NCBI RefSeq assembly: GCF_900103715.1
Contig: NZ_FNHL01000001.1
Location: 186,001 to 250,000, forward strand
Reading direction: 5' to 3'
Source of the DNA: Halogranum gelatinilyticum
GTDB lineage: Archaea > Halobacteriota > Halobacteria > Halobacteriales > Haloferacaceae
Length of the DNA stretch: 64,000 bases
A program made the translations under genes and the position numbers. Each line of letters opens with the position of its first letter. Positions within the stretch are counted from its first letter, which is position 1. The notes below the pieces were generated by a model that saw only the letters and a list, made by a program, of their open reading frames with translations, had not been told where the DNA came from and searched no databases. Below, piece by piece: positions 16,343 to 25,149 of the stretch.

Positions 16343-17056
16343 TCAGCGGCGGCGGGCCGAAGCGAGTGCGAGGAGACCGAGGAGGGCGACCACGCCAGCG
16401 AGGACGCCGAAGCCGGGAGAGGTCGTGCTCGTCGTCGCGTCCGCCGTTCCGGCTCTATCGGTTCCGTCGGGGGCGAAGACGGCACGGTAGCCGTCGAGAC
16501 CGTCGCCCGGCCACGTCGCGACCTCGTCCGACTCCTCGGCCGGGACGGGTGTCGACTCGACGAGTCCGTAGCCGTCGGGCGCGCGGACACTGACCGCGCC
16601 GTCGAAGGCGAACCCGTCCGCGAACGGTTCCGCGAGGACGAGTCGGTCGCCGTCGACGACGGCCAGCCCGTCCCAGTCCACCGAGAGCGCGACGATGCCC
16701 GTGTCGCCCTCGACGGTGACCGTGGTCCCGGCGTCGCGGACGCCCGTCTCACGACCCGTCTCGGCAGCGAGCGTCCGTGCGACCGACCCCATCCGGTCGG
16801 CGAACCGCGCCTGCATCGTCGCCTGCGCGGACTCGTTGGCCCGGACCCGCTCGAAGGCGGTCCGCTCGGCGTCGGTCGTGAGGTCGAAGCCGCGAACCAG
16901 CGTCACCGTCGCCGACCCGTCGGTGCGGAGGTCGACGACGAGACTGGCGTCGCCGGTGTCCGTCGCCGACGACTGTGCGGCGACCGGTCCGGCCAGTCCG
17001 CCCGTCACGAGGAGGACGGCAGCGACGAGCGCGGCCGACCGGCGGAGGTAGGGCAT
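16343..17056 (-). CDS. Exported protein with PGF-CTERM anchor, ectodomain shared with the gene at 18990
   Basis: A 237-residue surface protein: signal peptide (LVAAVLLVTGGLAGPVAAQS), an ectodomain of about 160 residues, a short Thr/Ala/Asp linker and the C terminus TTSPGFGVLAGVVALLGLLA plus SARRR. The PGF motif, hydrophobic helix and arginines form the PGF-CTERM signal cut and lipid-modified by archaeosortase A. The ectodomain aligns visibly with that of the winged-helix protein at 18990-20282 (TGRETGVRDAGTT... and ETGREMRATDFAAST..., later VRAPDGYGL and LRAPAGYEF). It abuts the PepSY protein gene with no spacer, so the two form one transcript. Confidence 0.82.
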   Translation of the reverse strand: MPYLRRSAALVAAVLLVTGGLAGPVAAQSSATDTGDASLVVDLRTDGSATVTLVRGFDLTTDAERTAFERVRANESAQATMQARFADRMGSVARTLAAETGRETGVRDAGTTVTVEGDTGIVALSVDWDGLAVVDGDRLVLAEPFADGFAFDGAVSVRAPDGYGLVESTPVPAEESDEVATWPGDGLDGYRAVFAPDGTDRAGTADATTSTTSPGFGVLAGVVALLGLLALASARRR

Positions 17057-18829
17057 TTACCGGCCCCCGTCGCTCCCTGAGTCGCTGTCGTCATCGTCAC
17101 GGTCGTCGTCTTCACTATCATCGTCGTCGCGGTCGCGGTCGTCATCGCTCTCGTCGTCGTCGTCGTCGCGCTCACGATCCTCCTCATCGCGGTCGTCACT
17201 GTCATCGTCGTCACGGTCGCGGTCGTCATCGCTCTCGTCGTCCCGCTCACGGTCGTCGTCGGAGTCGTCGTCACCATCCACTTCGACCTCGCCGACGCGG
17301 AGCGTGTCTCCGTCGGCGACGAGGGTCAACTCGGCCTCGAACTCGCCCTTGACGATCTCCAGTTCGAGGTCCTCGCGGATCGTCGCGTCGAAGCTGACCA
17401 CGCCGTCGGCGTCGGTGGTGCCGACGCGTTCGCCGTCGGCGAAGACCGTCGCGTCCGCAACGCCGTTCCCTTGGTAGGTCACGGTCACGGTGACGCGGCC
17501 GTCGGTCTGCTCGGCGTCGACCCGGAGGTCGCGGACGATGCGGTCGTCGTCGTCCTCACCGAACTCGAACTCCAGTTCACCCTCGGCCTCGCCGTGCTCG
17601 GCACGGAACTCGGCCTCACCGTCGGTGGGGAGGGTCACGTCGACCGTGCCGTCGGCATCGGTCGTCCCGATGCTCCGGTCGTTCAGCGTGACGGTCGCGC
17701 CCTCGACGGGCGTCCCGTCGGCGAGGACCTGTACGGTCACTGACTCGCCCGGGGCGACGGTGCCGTCGACGACGAGCAGGCGGAGGCGTTCGCGACGGTC
17801 GTCGCGGTCATCGTCGTCGTCGTCGCGGTCGTTGTCTGCATCGTCACGGTCATCGTCCTCGTCGTCCCCATCGCGGGCTTCGATCTCCTCTTCGAGGCGG
17901 AACACCTCACCCGTCGAGCCGTCGACGCGGACCTCGGCCTCGCCCTCGGAGCTGGCCGAGTCGAGAACGAACTCGAACTTGTAGTAGCCGCTCTCAGGGT
18001 GGACGCTGGCTCTCTCCAGCGTCCACTCGCCGTTCGCCGGGGTCGAGAGGATGTCCTGGGCCGTGTCCAACGCAGCCGACTGGCTGACGGTGATGTTCCT
18101 GTCGGCGTCACGCGGGCGGCTGAACTCGCGTGACTCCTCGCCGTCCTCGCTCTCGAACTCGATGCGGAGGCCGTCGGCCGTCCGGAGTTCGAGTTCGCCC
18201 TCACGCTCGCCGGTGAACCGCTCGAAGAGAGCGGCCGCGCCGACGCCGCGGAGGTCGTCGAGGTCCGAGACCGACGTCCGGAGGGCCGACTCGTTCAGGC
18301 CGGCAGCCCGGAGTTCGAGTGCCGAGAGGCCCTCACTGCGGACTTCGAGCCGCTCGTAGCTTCGGACGACGTTCTCCGCGCGGGCGTTCAACGTCGCGAG
18401 CCGCTGGGCGTACTGCGAGGCGGTGATGCTACCGTTCTCGTACGCAGCCGTGGCCGTCTCGTAGTCGGCGCGGATGGCTTCTGCACGCTCGCGGAGGGCT
18501 GCCCCGCGCGTCGCGACGGCTTCGACGCGAGTCTCGTCGTCGCCGTCCTCGTATTCGACGTCGAAGGCGGTCTCGTCGACCTCCGTCTGGATGTCGTCGT
18601 TCGTCACTGCGAGGACGGTCGCGAGCTGCGCGCCTGTCGAGACGTCGACGCTGTCGTTCGTCGTCTCGTTACCGGCCGTCTCGTTCGACTGCTGTGCCAC
18701 GAGCGCGCCGCCGACGGCGTTCGGGCCGTTGGTGTCGCCCGTCACCGCCATTGCTCCCGCGGCCGCGGGGACGACCGTCCCCACGAGGAGCAGTGCGGTC
18801 ACGAGCAGGACGCCGATTCGTTGTCTCAT
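17057..18829 (-). CDS. Large exported protein with PepSY, two Ig-like domains and Asp/Arg-rich tail
   Basis: A 590-residue secreted protein. Regions: signal peptide (1-26); helical domain (65-215) with ENGSITASQYAQRLATLNAR; a PepSY-like domain (247-315) with YYKFEFVLD and EVRVDGSTGEVFRLEEE; an acidic linker; two carboxypeptidase-regulatory/Ig-like domains (about 350-423 and 434-503) each with a GTTDADG turn; and a 70-residue tail of almost only Asp, Arg, Glu and Ser. PepSY domains often inhibit proteases or sense at the cell surface. There is no PGF-CTERM, so release or binding through the charged tail is possible. ATG 18829 is preferred over GTG 18832. First gene of a two-gene operon. Confidence 0.8.
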   Translation of the reverse strand: MRQRIGVLLVTALLLVGTVVPAAAGAMAVTGDTNGPNAVGGALVAQQSNETAGNETTNDSVDVSTGAQLATVLAVTNDDIQTEVDETAFDVEYEDGDDETRVEAVATRGAALRERAEAIRADYETATAAYENGSITASQYAQRLATLNARAENVVRSYERLEVRSEGLSALELRAAGLNESALRTSVSDLDDLRGVGAAALFERFTGEREGELELRTADGLRIEFESEDGEESREFSRPRDADRNITVSQSAALDTAQDILSTPANGEWTLERASVHPESGYYKFEFVLDSASSEGEAEVRVDGSTGEVFRLEEEIEARDGDDEDDDRDDADNDRDDDDDDRDDRRERLRLLVVDGTVAPGESVTVQVLADGTPVEGATVTLNDRSIGTTDADGTVDVTLPTDGEAEFRAEHGEAEGELEFEFGEDDDDRIVRDLRVDAEQTDGRVTVTVTYQGNGVADATVFADGERVGTTDADGVVSFDATIREDLELEIVKGEFEAELTLVADGDTLRVGEVEVDGDDDSDDDRERDDESDDDRDRDDDDSDDRDEEDRERDDDDDESDDDRDRDDDDSEDDDRDDDDSDSGSDGGR

Positions 18830-18989
18830 CACTCTCCCGTTCGCCCTCGGGGGATATCAACCGGGCAAATTCTCGCGACGAATCCCGTCGTCTCCGTCCG
18901 GTTTGCAGTCGTTTGCACCGAATTTCACGGGATTCTGTGGGAGGAAGCTACAGCCTCTTGTACCCCGGCAGCCACCTTCCTGTCAGAAA
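18830..18989. promoter_or_regulatory. Divergent promoter region of the surface module
   Basis: The 160 bases separate the PepSY gene (minus) from the membrane-bound winged-helix gene (plus). On the minus strand TTGATATCC (18850-18857 region) lies about 25 bases before ATG 18829 and could be a TATA box. On the plus strand only a weak ctcttgtacc (about 18953-18962) precedes ATG 18990. A local regulator acting from this shared region is plausible but no clear operator is visible. Confidence 0.4.
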
Positions 18990-20282
18990 ATGCAGTTACG
19001 TCACTCGCGGACCGCCGCCGTGGTCGCCCTCGGTGTGTGCCTCTCGCTCCTCGTGGCAGCCGTGGCTGGGCCTGCGGTGGCCCTCTCATCGGGGACGCCG
19101 ACTGCCCTCTCTCCCGCTGCCGACTCGCCCGCGCTCGCACAGGAGCAGCCGATCGCGGACACGACCGTCACGCGCATCGAACTGTCCGAGAACGGGACGG
19201 CCCGGTGGACGGTCCAGATCCGGACCGCCCTCGACAGCCAAGAACGCGTCGAGGAGTACCGCGCCTTCCAGTCGCGGTTCCGCGCGAACACCAGCCAGTA
19301 TCTCGACCCCTTCCGCACGCGCATCACGGGGACGGTGAGAACCGCCGCGAACGAGACGGGTCGGGAGATGCGCGCGACGGACTTCGCGGCCTCGACGACG
19401 ATTCAGGAGGTTCCCCGCCGGTGGGGGATCGTCACCTACGAGTTCACGTGGACGAACTTCGCCGTCGCCGACGGCGAGGATGTGACTATCGGCGACGTCT
19501 TCGGCAGCGGTTTCTTCCTCGCAGCGGGCGACACACTGGAGCTTCGTGCACCTGCGGGCTACGAGTTCACGACGGTCGACCCCGAGGCCGACCAGCGAGA
19601 ACCGGGGCTCGTCGCGTGGGTCGGCCGGACGGATTTCGCGGTCGACCATCCGCAGGCGACCGCCGTCGCCACGGACGGCGCGGATTCGCCAGCCGGGGGC
19701 GACAACGGTTCGACAGAGAGACCGAACGGGTTAACTTGGCTCCCCGCAGTCGCCGTCGGCCTGCTGCTCCTCGCGGTCGGTGTCGGTGGCGTCGTCTGGT
19801 ACCGTCGGCGAGCGTCCGGTGTCGGCCCGTCGGCTGCGACGCCCTCGGCGTCCTCGGCCGGGACCACCACTCCCGCAGCATCACCACCGTCTGGTGACGG
19901 TCGTGACAGCAGTGACGCCGACGGTACTGACGGCACTGACGACGCCGACGATGTAGGCGATGCCGACGACGCTGACGACACCGACGATGTAGGCGATGCC
20001 GACGACGCTGCCGACACCGACGACATTGGCGACACTGGCGACGAGTCTGGTACTGCAGCCGGTCCGACCGGTGACGAACTCCTGACCGACAGCGACCGGG
20101 TGCGACGGCTGCTCGACGGTGCGGGCGGCCGGATGAAGCAGGCCGACGTCGCCGACGAACTGGACTGGTCGGCGTCGAAGACCTCCCGGGTCGTCGCCGA
20201 CATGGCCGACGAAGGGCTGGTCCGCAAACTCCGACTCGGTCGCGAGAACGTGCTGGAACTCGTCGGGGAGTCCGAGGACTAG
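18990..20282 (+). CDS. Membrane-anchored winged-helix regulator with extracellular sensor domain
   Basis: A 430-residue protein: signal peptide, ectodomain (about residues 50-230) homologous to the PGF-CTERM protein at 16343, one membrane helix (LTWLPAVAVGLLLLAVGVGG) followed by WYRRR, a long Asp/Gly/Thr linker, and a C-terminal winged helix (LLTDSDRVRRLLDGAGGRMK, then QADVADELDWSASKTSRVVA and GLVRKLRLGRENVLEL). The topology, sensor outside and DNA-binding domain inside, fits one-component transmembrane signalling. The linker is encoded by a 36-bp tandem repeat (from 19945). ATG 18990 starts the signal peptide. It is divergent from the operon encoding its ectodomain paralogue. Confidence 0.82.
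   Translation: MQLRHSRTAAVVALGVCLSLLVAAVAGPAVALSSGTPTALSPAADSPALAQEQPIADTTVTRIELSENGTARWTVQIRTALDSQERVEEYRAFQSRFRANTSQYLDPFRTRITGTVRTAANETGREMRATDFAASTTIQEVPRRWGIVTYEFTWTNFAVADGEDVTIGDVFGSGFFLAAGDTLELRAPAGYEFTTVDPEADQREPGLVAWVGRTDFAVDHPQATAVATDGADSPAGGDNGSTERPNGLTWLPAVAVGLLLLAVGVGGVVWYRRRASGVGPSAATPSASSAGTTTPAASPPSGDGRDSSDADGTDGTDDADDVGDADDADDTDDVGDADDAADTDDIGDTGDESGTAAGPTGDELLTDSDRVRRLLDGAGGRMKQADVADELDWSASKTSRVVADMADEGLVRKLRLGRENVLELVGESED
19945..20040 (+). repeat. 36-bp tandem repeat encoding an Asp-rich linker
   Basis: The unit beginning ccgacgatgtaggcgatgcc at 19945 recurs at 19981, with a diverged third copy after 20017. It encodes repeats of DDVGDADDADDT in the cytoplasmic linker of the winged-helix protein. 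Length variation between strains is likely. Confidence 0.75.
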
Positions 20283-21629: not shown

Positions 21630-22751
21630 TTACCTGCTCTCCGCGTCCGACGGGACGACGTGTAGCCCTGCCCGACTTTTCAGTACATTGACCATCGGCT
21701 CGTCGGGGTCGAAAAAGTCCGGCCGGGCGATGGTCTTGGCCTCGAACGTCTCGGGGTCGAGCACCTGCACCGCGTGCTCGTCCTCGACGGTGACGACGGT
21801 CGTCTCCTCGGCGTCGTCTACCGTCCCCAACTTCGTCGCTGGCGGCGTCTCGCCCTCCTCGAACCGCGACTCGTAGTGCTCGCCCGTCGTCAGCCGCGTC
21901 CCCTTCAGGTTCCCGCGCGCGCTCGTGACGAGGACCGGTCCCCCGTCGTCGTCGTCCAACTCGATGATGTCGCCCTGGGTGAACTTCGGCAGCCGAATCG
22001 CGTAGGTGACGCGGTAGACCTCGTTGCCGTCGCCGTCTTCGGTGACGAGCGTCGGGTAGTTCTCGACGCTGCCGCCGAGTTCGCGCGTGATACGGCTCGA
22101 GACGGCCTGTCCTAACTGGTTTGTCGAGAGCTTGATGTTGACGCCCTCGTCGGTCTCCTGGGTCTCGGTGATGAACGCGTTGCGGTCGCCCGCCTCCTCG
22201 CGGTCGGCGATGATGTCCTCGGCGATCTCGACGGCACGGGCGTCCTCCTCGGGCGTCGGCGTCCGGTCGGTCCCTCTCACTTGCACGAGACTGGCCCAGT
22301 AGCCGCCGGCCTTGCGGCCGCACTGCTTGCACGTCTGGCGGGAGATGTGGACCGGCACGACCGCCTCCTCTTCGAGGAACGTGTCGCGGACGATCCCGTT
22401 GAACCGACAGTGCATCCGGATGGTGTTCTGGTCGACCTGCTCGGGTTCGACGGCCCACGACACCTCTTGGGCTTTGACGTGGACGCCGAGTGCTGCCTGC
22501 ACTTCGTCGATGGCGACGTCGGTGTAGTCTTTCGCGCCGACGTCGACCCACCGCTTGCCGCGGTAGACGGCCCCGCAGTGGGCACAGACCATGACCTCGA
22601 TGCGCTCGGGGGCGTCGACGAGGTCGAAGTCCTCGAAGTAGCAGGCGTCACAGAGGACGGCGTCGCGCTCGCGGGGGGTTCCCGGGAGCGGCTCCTCCCG
22701 CTCCTCGACGGGGTCCCCACAACGCGGACAGAATTCGCCTGACTGACTCAT
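21630..22751 (-). CDS. nmd3: NMD3-family ribosome biogenesis protein
   Basis: A 373-residue archaeal NMD3 homologue, the factor that in eukaryotes adapts 60S subunits for export and in archaea presumably helps large-subunit assembly. The N-terminal zinc fingers are FCPRCGDPVEE, LCDACYFEDFDLVDAP, VCAHCGAVYRG and TCKQCGRKAGGYW, giving four CxxC pairs. The C-terminal beta domains (GDIIELDDDDGGPVLVTS) are acidic. ATG 22751 lies immediately before the first CxxC; the open frame upstream is not supported. Confidence 0.93.
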   Translation of the reverse strand: MSQSGEFCPRCGDPVEEREEPLPGTPRERDAVLCDACYFEDFDLVDAPERIEVMVCAHCGAVYRGKRWVDVGAKDYTDVAIDEVQAALGVHVKAQEVSWAVEPEQVDQNTIRMHCRFNGIVRDTFLEEEAVVPVHISRQTCKQCGRKAGGYWASLVQVRGTDRTPTPEEDARAVEIAEDIIADREEAGDRNAFITETQETDEGVNIKLSTNQLGQAVSSRITRELGGSVENYPTLVTEDGDGNEVYRVTYAIRLPKFTQGDIIELDDDDGGPVLVTSARGNLKGTRLTTGEHYESRFEEGETPPATKLGTVDDAEETTVVTVEDEHAVQVLDPETFEAKTIARPDFFDPDEPMVNVLKSRAGLHVVPSDAESR

Positions 22752-22976
22752 TGTTGGTGCTTCGTAGGACAGTGTGCTGTTTAAGCCCCGCGAAGCGTCG
22801 GCTGGGGGTTCGTTTGGTGTCGCCTCTCGTGATTCGGTGACCGTTTCGAATCTGATAGATGTGGTGTGCTGAACCGAGGACTCGAGTCGGTCAACAGAGC
22901 GTGCTGCTGGAACGACCAACCGGATGTACGCTGGGGACAACTATTATCGACACACCGAAACTATCGACGTACATCG

Positions 22977-23181: not shown

Positions 23182-24084
23182 TCAGACCGTCAGCTCCGGC
23201 TCGTCGAGTTTCTCGTCGGCTGCCTCGCGCCACGAGTGGTCGGGCGTCCAGCCGAGCAGTTCCGCAGCCTTCGCCGTCGAATACGCGGACTGGTCGCCGT
23301 CGACGTCGCAGTCGTCAGGAACCTCGCCGTAGAACTCCTGCATCAACTCGACCAGGCTACGACCGAGCGCGTTGTCCGGGCCGACGCAGTTGAACGCCTC
23401 GTGGCCCTCGATTGTTCCATCCCTCGTTCCCTCCAGCGCGGCCTGCACGAGGTTCACTACGTCGCGGATGTCGACGTAGGACCAGTAGTTGCCCGCGCCG
23501 GCATCGAGGTTCGAGGTGTAGCCCTCGTCGCGGCAGAGATACGCGCCGGGATACTGAATCCACGAGGGGCGGATAGAGGCGACGGGAACGCCGTCGCGCC
23601 GAGCGACGGATTTGGCGATTTCCTCGGCGGCAACCTTCGAGAGACCGTAGTCGTCCTCCGGGCGGAGCGCGTGTGCCTCGGAGATGGGGAGTTCGTCCGG
23701 GACCGGCGTCTCGCTCGCGCCGAAGAAGCCGTAGGCTCCGTCGCTGGAGGCTTGGACGACTCGGGCGTCGACACGGCCCGCCGCGGCGAGGACGTTGTAG
23801 CTGGCGAGCGTGTTGTTCTCGAAGACATCGCCGCCGGGATGTCGGCCCGCCACCGGAATCGCACCCCAGTGGACGACGGCGTCGGGAGCCACGTCGGTCA
23901 CGAGGTCGAAGACCGACCCTCGCTTCGTGAGGTCGAGTGCGCGAAACTCGATGCCCTTCCGACCCTGTGCGTCGAAGCCGGGATGGTCGAAGTCGGCGCA
24001 GACGACCTCGTAGTCGTCGGCGAGTCCGTCGACGAGCCAGCGACCCGACTTGCCGAGACCGCCGGTGACGAGAACAGTTTGCAT
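23182..24084 (-). CDS. NAD-dependent epimerase/dehydratase (extended SDR), copy 2
   Basis: A 300-residue extended short-chain dehydrogenase. The N-terminal Rossmann motif is TGGLGKSGRWLV, the acidic D in VCADFDHPG selects NAD, and the catalytic pair is in YGLSK with the upstream serine in QASSDGAYG. It is a close paralogue of the gene immediately upstream (24128-25036), sharing GGDVFENNTL, SIRPSWIQYPG and LLGW-PDHSWREA-type segments, so the pair arose by tandem duplication. Likely acts on a nucleotide sugar or uronate; the substrate cannot be assigned. Confidence 0.9.
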   Translation of the reverse strand: MQTVLVTGGLGKSGRWLVDGLADDYEVVCADFDHPGFDAQGRKGIEFRALDLTKRGSVFDLVTDVAPDAVVHWGAIPVAGRHPGGDVFENNTLASYNVLAAAGRVDARVVQASSDGAYGFFGASETPVPDELPISEAHALRPEDDYGLSKVAAEEIAKSVARRDGVPVASIRPSWIQYPGAYLCRDEGYTSNLDAGAGNYWSYVDIRDVVNLVQAALEGTRDGTIEGHEAFNCVGPDNALGRSLVELMQEFYGEVPDDCDVDGDQSAYSTAKAAELLGWTPDHSWREAADEKLDEPELTV

Positions 24085-24127
24085 GAACGAGTCGACGCGG
24101 GTCGGCGGAAAATAGGCGACGGATTTC

Positions 24128-25036
24128 TTAGGAGTACAGTTCTGGGTCCGCAACGTCCGCCTCGGCGGCCTCACGCCACGAGTGTTCGGGTTCCCAGCCG
24201 AGCAGGCGTGTAGCCTTCGCCGTCGACAGTGCCGACTGGTCGCCGTCGAGGTCGCAGTCTTCCGGAACCCTGTCGAAGAACGCCTCGACGGCCTCGGTGG
24301 TGGGGCGGTCGAGGTAGTTGTCCGCCGCGGCGGCGTGGAACGCTTCGTGGCCGGGATGGGCGGTGTCGAGCGCGGCGGCGACGAGTCCGGCCACGTCGCG
24401 GATGTCGACGTAGCACCAGAAGTTGCCCGCGCCCGCTTCGAGGTCCGAGGGGTCGTCCCAGTCGACGCTCGGGAGGGTACGGCAGTTGTACTCGCCGGGA
24501 TACTGGATCCACGAGGGGCGGATAGAAGTAACAGAGACGTCGTAGCGGCGGACGACCATCTTCGCGATCTCCTCGCCGACGACCTTGGAGACGCCGTAGG
24601 GGTCCTCCGGCCGCTGGGCGTGGGCCTCGGTGATGGGGAGTTCGTCGGGCAGAACCTTCTCCTGGGAGAAGGGGAAGCCGTAGGAACTCTCGCTGGAGGC
24701 CCAGACGACCCGCGCGTCGGCGCGGCCCGCGGCGACGAGGACGTTGTAGGTCGACAGCGTGTTGTTCTCGAAGACGTCGCCGCCAGGGTGGCGTTCGGGC
24801 GAGGGGATCGCTCCCCAGTGGACGACGGCGTCAGGGTCGAGGTCGGTCACGAGGTCGAAGACACTTCCTCTCTCTGTGAGGTCCAGCGCGCGGAAGTCGA
24901 CGTTGTCGCGGGCGTCGACTTCGAAGCCGGGGTGGTCGAGGTCGGCGCAGACGACCTCGTAGTCGTCGGCGAGGCGGTCGACGAGCCAGCGGCCGGAGCG
25001 GCCGAGGCCACCGGTCACGAGTACAGATTCGGTCAT
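24128..25036 (-). CDS. NAD-dependent epimerase/dehydratase (extended SDR), copy 1
   Basis: A 302-residue extended SDR with TGGLGRSGRWLVDRL, the NAD-selecting acidic stretch VCADLDHPG, and catalytic YGVSK. It is upstream of, and separated by 43 bases from, its paralogue at 23182-24084; co-transcription is likely. Similar proteins include uronate dehydrogenases and UDP-sugar epimerases. ATG 25036 gives a start right at the first beta strand; the frame opens 9 codons farther upstream without a better start. Function inferred only to the level of NAD-dependent sugar oxidoreduction or epimerisation. Confidence 0.9.
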   Translation of the reverse strand: MTESVLVTGGLGRSGRWLVDRLADDYEVVCADLDHPGFEVDARDNVDFRALDLTERGSVFDLVTDLDPDAVVHWGAIPSPERHPGGDVFENNTLSTYNVLVAAGRADARVVWASSESSYGFPFSQEKVLPDELPITEAHAQRPEDPYGVSKVVGEEIAKMVVRRYDVSVTSIRPSWIQYPGEYNCRTLPSVDWDDPSDLEAGAGNFWCYVDIRDVAGLVAAALDTAHPGHEAFHAAAADNYLDRPTTEAVEAFFDRVPEDCDLDGDQSALSTAKATRLLGWEPEHSWREAAEADVADPELYS

Positions 25037-25149
25037 ATGGTCACCTCTCTCGGCCGGAGACAAGTAGGCTAGCGTGGCGGCAGCGTCTCGCGACGTGGCT
25101 GACGCTCTTCAGTTGGTGTCGAACAGTTGGTATGTTGTCTCAGCGGGGG

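Follow-up and report, generated by a model that had tools for sequence, protein, structure and literature searches.

The 64,000-nucleotide (nt) stretch of Halogranum gelatinilyticum DNA analyzed here (contig NZ_FNHL01000001.1, positions 186,001 to 250,000; hereafter the window) contains three adjoining genes that we call G, D, and W. G and D lie together on the minus strand, and W is transcribed divergently from them. An initial annotation of this DNA had described W as a membrane-bound winged-helix sensor controlling its own surface genes, with G as a second copy of its ectodomain. Our approach was to characterize the domains of the three proteins, their linkage in related genomes, and the promoter region between D and W. 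The features concerned are listed below by their positions in the window.

16343–17056, minus strand: gene G, with a signal peptide, a DUF7345 ectodomain (~16568–16936), a linker, and a PGF-CTERM sorting signal (~16358–16432).
17057–18829, minus strand: gene D, with a signal peptide, a helical DUF7096 domain (~18275–18811), a PepSY-like domain (~17876–18082), two immunoglobulin (Ig)/MG-like domains (~17318–17794), and an Asp-rich tail.
18851–18861, minus strand: TATA-like element of the D–G operon, TTGATATCCCC on the minus strand, read from the sequence.
18898–18927, plus strand: candidate operator made up of three direct repeats, each exactly 10 bp long, CCGGTTTGCA GTCGTTTGCA CCGAATTTCA.
18990–20282, plus strand: gene W, with a signal peptide, a DUF7345 ectodomain (~19173–19562), a membrane helix (~19737–19814), an Asp-rich linker, and a DUF7343 winged helix (~20079–20261).

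Domains of the three proteins

The open reading frames (ORFs) were found where the initial annotation had placed them, and its claim of an ectodomain common to G and W was borne out. DUF7345 (PF24036) was detected in G at 70.6 bits and in W at 111.1 bits (Pfam gathering score 27.5), and a single BLASTP comparison of the two proteins gave 28% identity with E = 1e-11. The motif pairs cited for this likeness, ETGRE, VDWDGLAV/FTWTNFAV, and RAPDGYG/RAPAGYE, were also present. The regulator is not alone in having DUF7345, however: four genes of the genome encode this domain, three of them together with DUF7343.

The C-terminal parts of the two proteins likewise matched their description. In G, PGF-CTERM (TIGR04126) scored 25.7 bits, barely over the 24.5-bit cut-off, and the genome encodes an archaeosortase A homologue (TIGR04125, 341.8 bits). 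With both the signal and its cognate sortase present, G is predicted to be an archaeosortase A substrate. In W, the membrane helix and Asp-rich linker are followed by a winged helix that matched DUF7343 (PF24034) at 91.1 bits (cut-off 27.6); its best Pfam matches were DUF7343, MarR_2, and IclR. In an AlphaFold2 model of W built with 20 sequences, the predicted local distance difference test (pLDDT) value was >90 for most 10-residue blocks in the ectodomain (residues 51–230). The model placed the membrane helix at residues 250–275 and a confident winged helix, mostly with pLDDT ≥90, at residues 367–424, at the end of a disordered acidic linker, and residues 365–430 resembled solved winged helices with Z of ~10. 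Because RRR follows the membrane helix, the positive-inside rule places the winged helix in the cytoplasm. The order of signal peptide, ectodomain, one transmembrane helix, RRR, and winged helix agrees with the one-component transmembrane architecture that had been suggested. Searches with W and D gave no sequence match to any solved structure, and the Foldseek matches of the ectodomain (FMO protein, LppM, and M61 peptidase) had low TM-scores or a high root-mean-square deviation (rmsd) and were given no weight.

D contains DUF7096 (PF23379) at 38.6 bits against a gathering score of 27; the D proteins of several relatives score slightly under that cut-off. Its AlphaFold2 model had a mean pLDDT of 73. 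In structural comparisons the PepSY-like fold aligned with the C-terminal domain of YpeB (Z 8.8, rmsd 4.5, 135 residues) and the Ig/MG-like region with MG1 of alpha-2-macroglobulin (Z 10.7). D is a secreted-type protein lacking a C-terminal anchor. Its start is very probably the ATG at 18829, not position 18832, and the ATG of G comes immediately after its TAA stop codon. G had been placed in an operon with a PepSY/Ig/Asp-rich protein. The operon coupling, the Ig/MG-like domains, and the Asp-rich tail were all found; the PepSY label, however, refers to predicted fold only, because no PepSY family was reported by Pfam for D at E ≤ 1.

Conservation of the W–D pair and distribution of G

Linkage was determined in 59 related genomes, with simple estimates as the chance expectations. 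DUF7345 was present in all 59 and DUF7096 in 57. The conserved linkage foreseen in the initial annotation was evident: of the 89 DUF7096 genes that passed the Pfam cut-off, 75 had a DUF7345 gene no more than 5 kb away, against a chance expectation of ~0.7%. All but two of the 75 (73) adjoined a W-type gene, 61 divergently and 12 on the same strand. Divergent transcription, which had been given as the arrangement, is a common layout but not a universal one, as same-strand and convergent layouts also occur.

G has a different distribution. Searching with a profile of G-type proteins identified a lone DUF7345 protein in ~50 of 293 genomes of the order (~17%); the genera represented include Halobellus, Halorubrum, Halomarina, Salinibaculum, Natronorubrum, and Haloparvum. 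D was directly upstream on the same strand in 51 of 59 lone-DUF7345 genes examined, usually with a gap of −4 to +60 nt, and G was often translationally coupled to it. W was close to 37 of the 51 D–G loci (18 divergent, 16 same strand, and 3 convergent). The sampling of same-strand and G loci was partly guided by the presence of G. Because G is patchy among genomes, it was rejected as a universal partner. The earlier suggestion of a matched partner for the regulator has to be amended: a partner gene is conserved, but it is D and not the PGF-CTERM copy, which follows D rather than W. We conclude that the conserved pair is W plus D, and that G is an optional third member.

A few outliers aside, the G-type proteins formed a single clade (22 rows, support 100) distinct from the W groups, which suggests that G arose early and was then frequently lost or spread. 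In several relatives the C-terminal anchor is not PGF but a plain or PTP-type one; the constant feature is thus an anchored ectodomain without a DNA-binding part. Two other kinds of gene were distinguished from G. One DUF7345 gene of 256 amino acids (G026, L066), taken as G by its length, was really a truncated or frameshifted W. Another kind of lone DUF7345 protein (L148–L153) ends in a different C-terminal anchor, of the HGGAPLALGISALIL type, and is not directly preceded by a DUF7096 gene.

G might simply be the membrane anchor of D, with no regulatory role, and its likeness to W would then mean that both proteins bind D. We regard this as quite possible, at somewhat under an even chance. 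It would supply the anchor that D lacks, and it agrees with the position of G, nearly always behind D and often coupled to it, and with the occurrence of D without G in most genomes. Anchoring alone, however, leaves the G-less majority of species unexplained, and a role as decoy or competitor is likewise compatible with these observations.

In a tree, the W proteins split into groups A, B (that of the window), and C. In the paralogous group A, 26 of 30 loci included a DUF7096 gene transcribed divergently, whereas the group C loci had no DUF7096 neighbor. Separate clades for group A and group B D sequences were not rejected in the tree of D, as would be expected if W–D pairs had duplicated together. 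Beyond the order, DUF7345 was found in 11 of 75 sampled genomes of the same phylum; in one from another order (G343:C1:682048-685734), two DUF7345 genes lie ~3 kb apart on one strand.

Some neighboring genes were also recorded. The group A W–D pair of the H. gelatinilyticum genome (L067:7897-14395) adjoins a pilin-like gene (Pilin_N) and an A-type ATP synthase cluster, and ATPase genes are also close to two group B loci (those listed are L058 and L073). Around the group C DUF7345–DUF7343 regulators (L068–L075) the surrounding genes recur in several genomes, with an amidohydrolase-like ORF in some. A gene judged NMD3-like by inspection lies near W–D–G both in the window (21630–22940) and in G022 (L057:2504-3616; blastp E 5e-170). 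Two neighboring NAD-dependent epimerase/dehydratase-like genes at 23182–25063 of the window appear to be a tandem duplication.

The 10-bp repeat array in the W/D promoter

Direct repeats are conspicuous in the W/D intergenic regions. In the window the array lies within the shared W/D promoter, on the upstream side of both the D start and the D TATA-like octamer, at 68 bp from the former and ~37 bp from the latter. A strict regular expression caught too few repeat copies, so expectation-maximization (EM) and a motif-free lag test were used instead. EM gave a motif of approximately GACGTTTGCA on the W strand, with a log-likelihood of 196 versus 60–91 in shuffles. Motif copies were spaced by exactly 10, 20, and 30 bp in 48, 31, and 15 pairs, nearly all in one orientation. 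Self-identity at lag 10 upstream of D was 0.445 for divergent loci, 0.366 for same-strand loci, and 0.378 for loci with no adjacent W, compared with 0.269 for 573 control upstreams. At least 18 of 30 positions matched at lag 10 in 21 of 64 D upstreams, versus 2 of the 573 controls. Same-strand loci carried a variant repeat, TTAATCCG, on the D strand.

The array is specific to this locus. Allowing at most one mismatch, the three-copy pattern had a single match in the 3.77-Mb genome, at this array (18900–18927 of the window). In 17 other genomes all 17 exact matches (in 13 genomes) were at the W/D locus and none elsewhere; the motif used in these uniqueness tests had been learned from the same loci.

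The sequence of the repeats varied with the protein. W proteins with the recognition helix SKTSR were paired with TGCAAACG arrays and those with AKTSQ with TTAATCCG arrays, several host families containing both, and AKTSK loci had intermediate arrays. When the test family was left out of training, 37 of 42 R/Q loci were assigned correctly. These results suggest that the array is probably W's own docking site. A genome-unique array in the shared promoter that covaries with the recognition helix also lends support, of an indirect kind, to the proposed control of the neighboring surface genes by W.

The position of the array bears on the sign of that control. In 37 of 37 scorable loci it was upstream of the D TATA-like element, at distances clustering at 14, 24, 34–37, and 57–59 bp, which are helically spaced; simple rules were used to place start codons and TATA elements. 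This placement fits an activator better than promoter occlusion, and W probably activates D–G. It is rather unlikely, but credible, that W is instead a repressor of D–G, which sensing of D or of a surface stress would release, with the array nucleating a filament that blocks the promoter. The MarR/ArsR-like winged helices that W resembles in fold are often repressors, and the same architecture and operator data can be cited for this reading; the upstream, helically spaced position of the arrays favors activation. Autoregulation of W in all lineages was considered and rejected, since the array precedes D, not W, where the two genes share a strand. For the same reason we take D to be the conserved target.

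Group A loci (L026–L055) have a strongly conserved GATGGAAAGCGTTTTS ~30–45 bp upstream of W, which had one match at ≤1 mismatch in the window's own genome (G000:C1:380077-380092). This element is probably a second, palindrome-like candidate operator, for the paralogous group A regulator.

Proposed mechanism and relation to known systems

We propose, as the fairly probable reading of these comparisons, that W, D, and G form a transmembrane one-component signaling module in which W regulates the operon of its surface partner and senses D outside the cell. W would sit in the cytoplasmic membrane with DUF7345 outside and the MarR/ArsR-like winged helix inside, on its long acidic linker. Several W monomers would bind the array head to tail, upstream of the D–G TATA box, and most likely activate the operon. 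The outer domain of W would sense what state the secreted protein D is in. Because W and G share DUF7345, both adjoin D, and G rarely occurs without D, DUF7345 is probably the D-binding domain. G, which presents the outer domain of W on an archaeosortase (or plain) anchor with no DNA-binding part, would most likely bind D as well. It could then either tether D to the surface or remove D from W, so that operon output would feed back on W; tethering and a decoy or co-receptor role are equally compatible with the data.

Several observations weigh against this proposal. The contact between D and DUF7345 is deduced from gene association. In place of a 10-bp array, the group A W–D pairs carry a different element. 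Since helix type, gene arrangement, and operator type pass down together, independent covariation events are few, and we regard the covariation of helix and repeat as supportive but not decisive. Phased A/T accounts for part of the 10-bp periodicity and could yield intrinsic DNA curvature: lag-10 identity for A/T alone was 0.743, and that for G/C alone was 0.554 versus 0.497 (standard deviation 0.013), a significant but smaller signal. The repeats, as phased A/T tracts, might then bend the DNA and directly stimulate the D promoter, or they might be bound by a nucleoid protein, with W not binding them in either case. The recurrence of G/C positions as well, at lags 10, 20, and 30, weakens a purely structural reading; restriction of the pattern to the W/D locus genome-wide and the tracking of the W recognition helix by the repeat sequence across families also speak against it, and we consider it improbable. 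Finally, 14 D–G loci have no W nearby, and regulation there would need to act in trans. These loci, and the patchiness of G, are also what would be seen if the neighborhood were a relic of separate surface genes linked by chance or selfish transfer, with W regulating something else. That explanation is very improbable, as W–D pairing recurs throughout the order, in two paralogous groups, at ~100 times the chance level, in several gene orders, and with a common operator.

A broader version of the signaling module is a speculative extension that we consider doubtful. Duplicated W–D pairs would constitute a general haloarchaeal envelope scheme, in which the winged helix polymerizes on helically phased 10-bp repeats according to the amount of D bound outside the cell, and sortase-anchored G, encoded in the operon of D, acts as a threshold-setting competitor.

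Signaling across the archaeal membrane without two-component systems is poorly known. The W–D pair occurs in nearly all haloarchaeal genomes sampled, together with a predicted ligand gene and a predicted operator. With these, and with natural operator variants matching recognition-helix variants, a complete signal path is testable in tractable haloarchaea. The results also offer provisional roles for three domain families of unknown function, DUF7345, DUF7343, and DUF7096.

Transmembrane transcription regulators (TTRs) are a recognized class in bacteria and archaea, defined in the survey passages available to us by a DNA-binding domain plus at least one transmembrane region, with an average of ~4 per archaeal genome (Demey et al. 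2023, PMC10269533). W, with both on one polypeptide, falls within that definition. The same passages make no mention of DUF7345/DUF7343, nor of the partner, operator, or anchored copy. In the parts of the literature consulted, the closest analogues are ToxR/ToxS and TcpP/TcpH of Vibrio cholerae, in which a membrane-anchored single-pass winged-helix regulator exerts its control at the membrane and is encoded beside a modulating extracytoplasmic partner (PMC10269533, PMC11323476, PMC7496328). The order of ToxR and TcpP is reversed in W, which has its ectodomain first and its winged helix at the C terminus. Their DNA-binding domain is OmpR-like, whereas that of W is the MarR/ArsR-like DUF7343. 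W therefore lies outside the ToxR family, which is characterized by an N-terminal cytoplasmic OmpR-type winged helix. The partner differs as well; unlike ToxS and TcpH, D is a large secreted DUF7096/PepSY-like/Ig protein, sometimes encoded with a lipid-anchored ectodomain copy.

ArnR of Sulfolobus acidocaldarius is described as a one-component activator of the archaellum that is bound to the membrane (Lassak 2013, cited in PMC13286277). Like W, it is an archaeal, membrane-bound, winged-helix one-component regulator. ArnR has an N-terminal helix-turn-helix and two transmembrane helices. Neither a DUF7345 ectodomain nor a DUF7096 partner nor a tandem array is known for ArnR, which by description differs from W in these respects. 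CsmR was dropped as a possible relative, as the passages on it in PMC13286277 describe neither an ectodomain nor a membrane anchor.

For the mode of DNA binding, BldC binds head to tail and cooperatively on a variable number of tandem direct repeats (PMC5859096). Such direct-repeat binding, also a feature of PhoB/OmpR-type regulators, is the mode suggested by the W/D array. BldC is MerR-like and soluble, however, and its repeat unit and protein family differ from those of W. D resembles the Bacillus PepSY protein YpeB by its PepSY-like fold only, with no sequence relationship shown, and unlike YpeB it has Ig domains and an Asp-rich tail. No relevant paper on DUF7345, DUF7343, DUF7096, or COG2512 was found in the searchable literature, outside which most subscription journals lie. 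The gene set, of which no earlier description was found there, is conserved in haloarchaea and is predicted to work in the manner of ToxR/ToxS and TcpP/TcpH.

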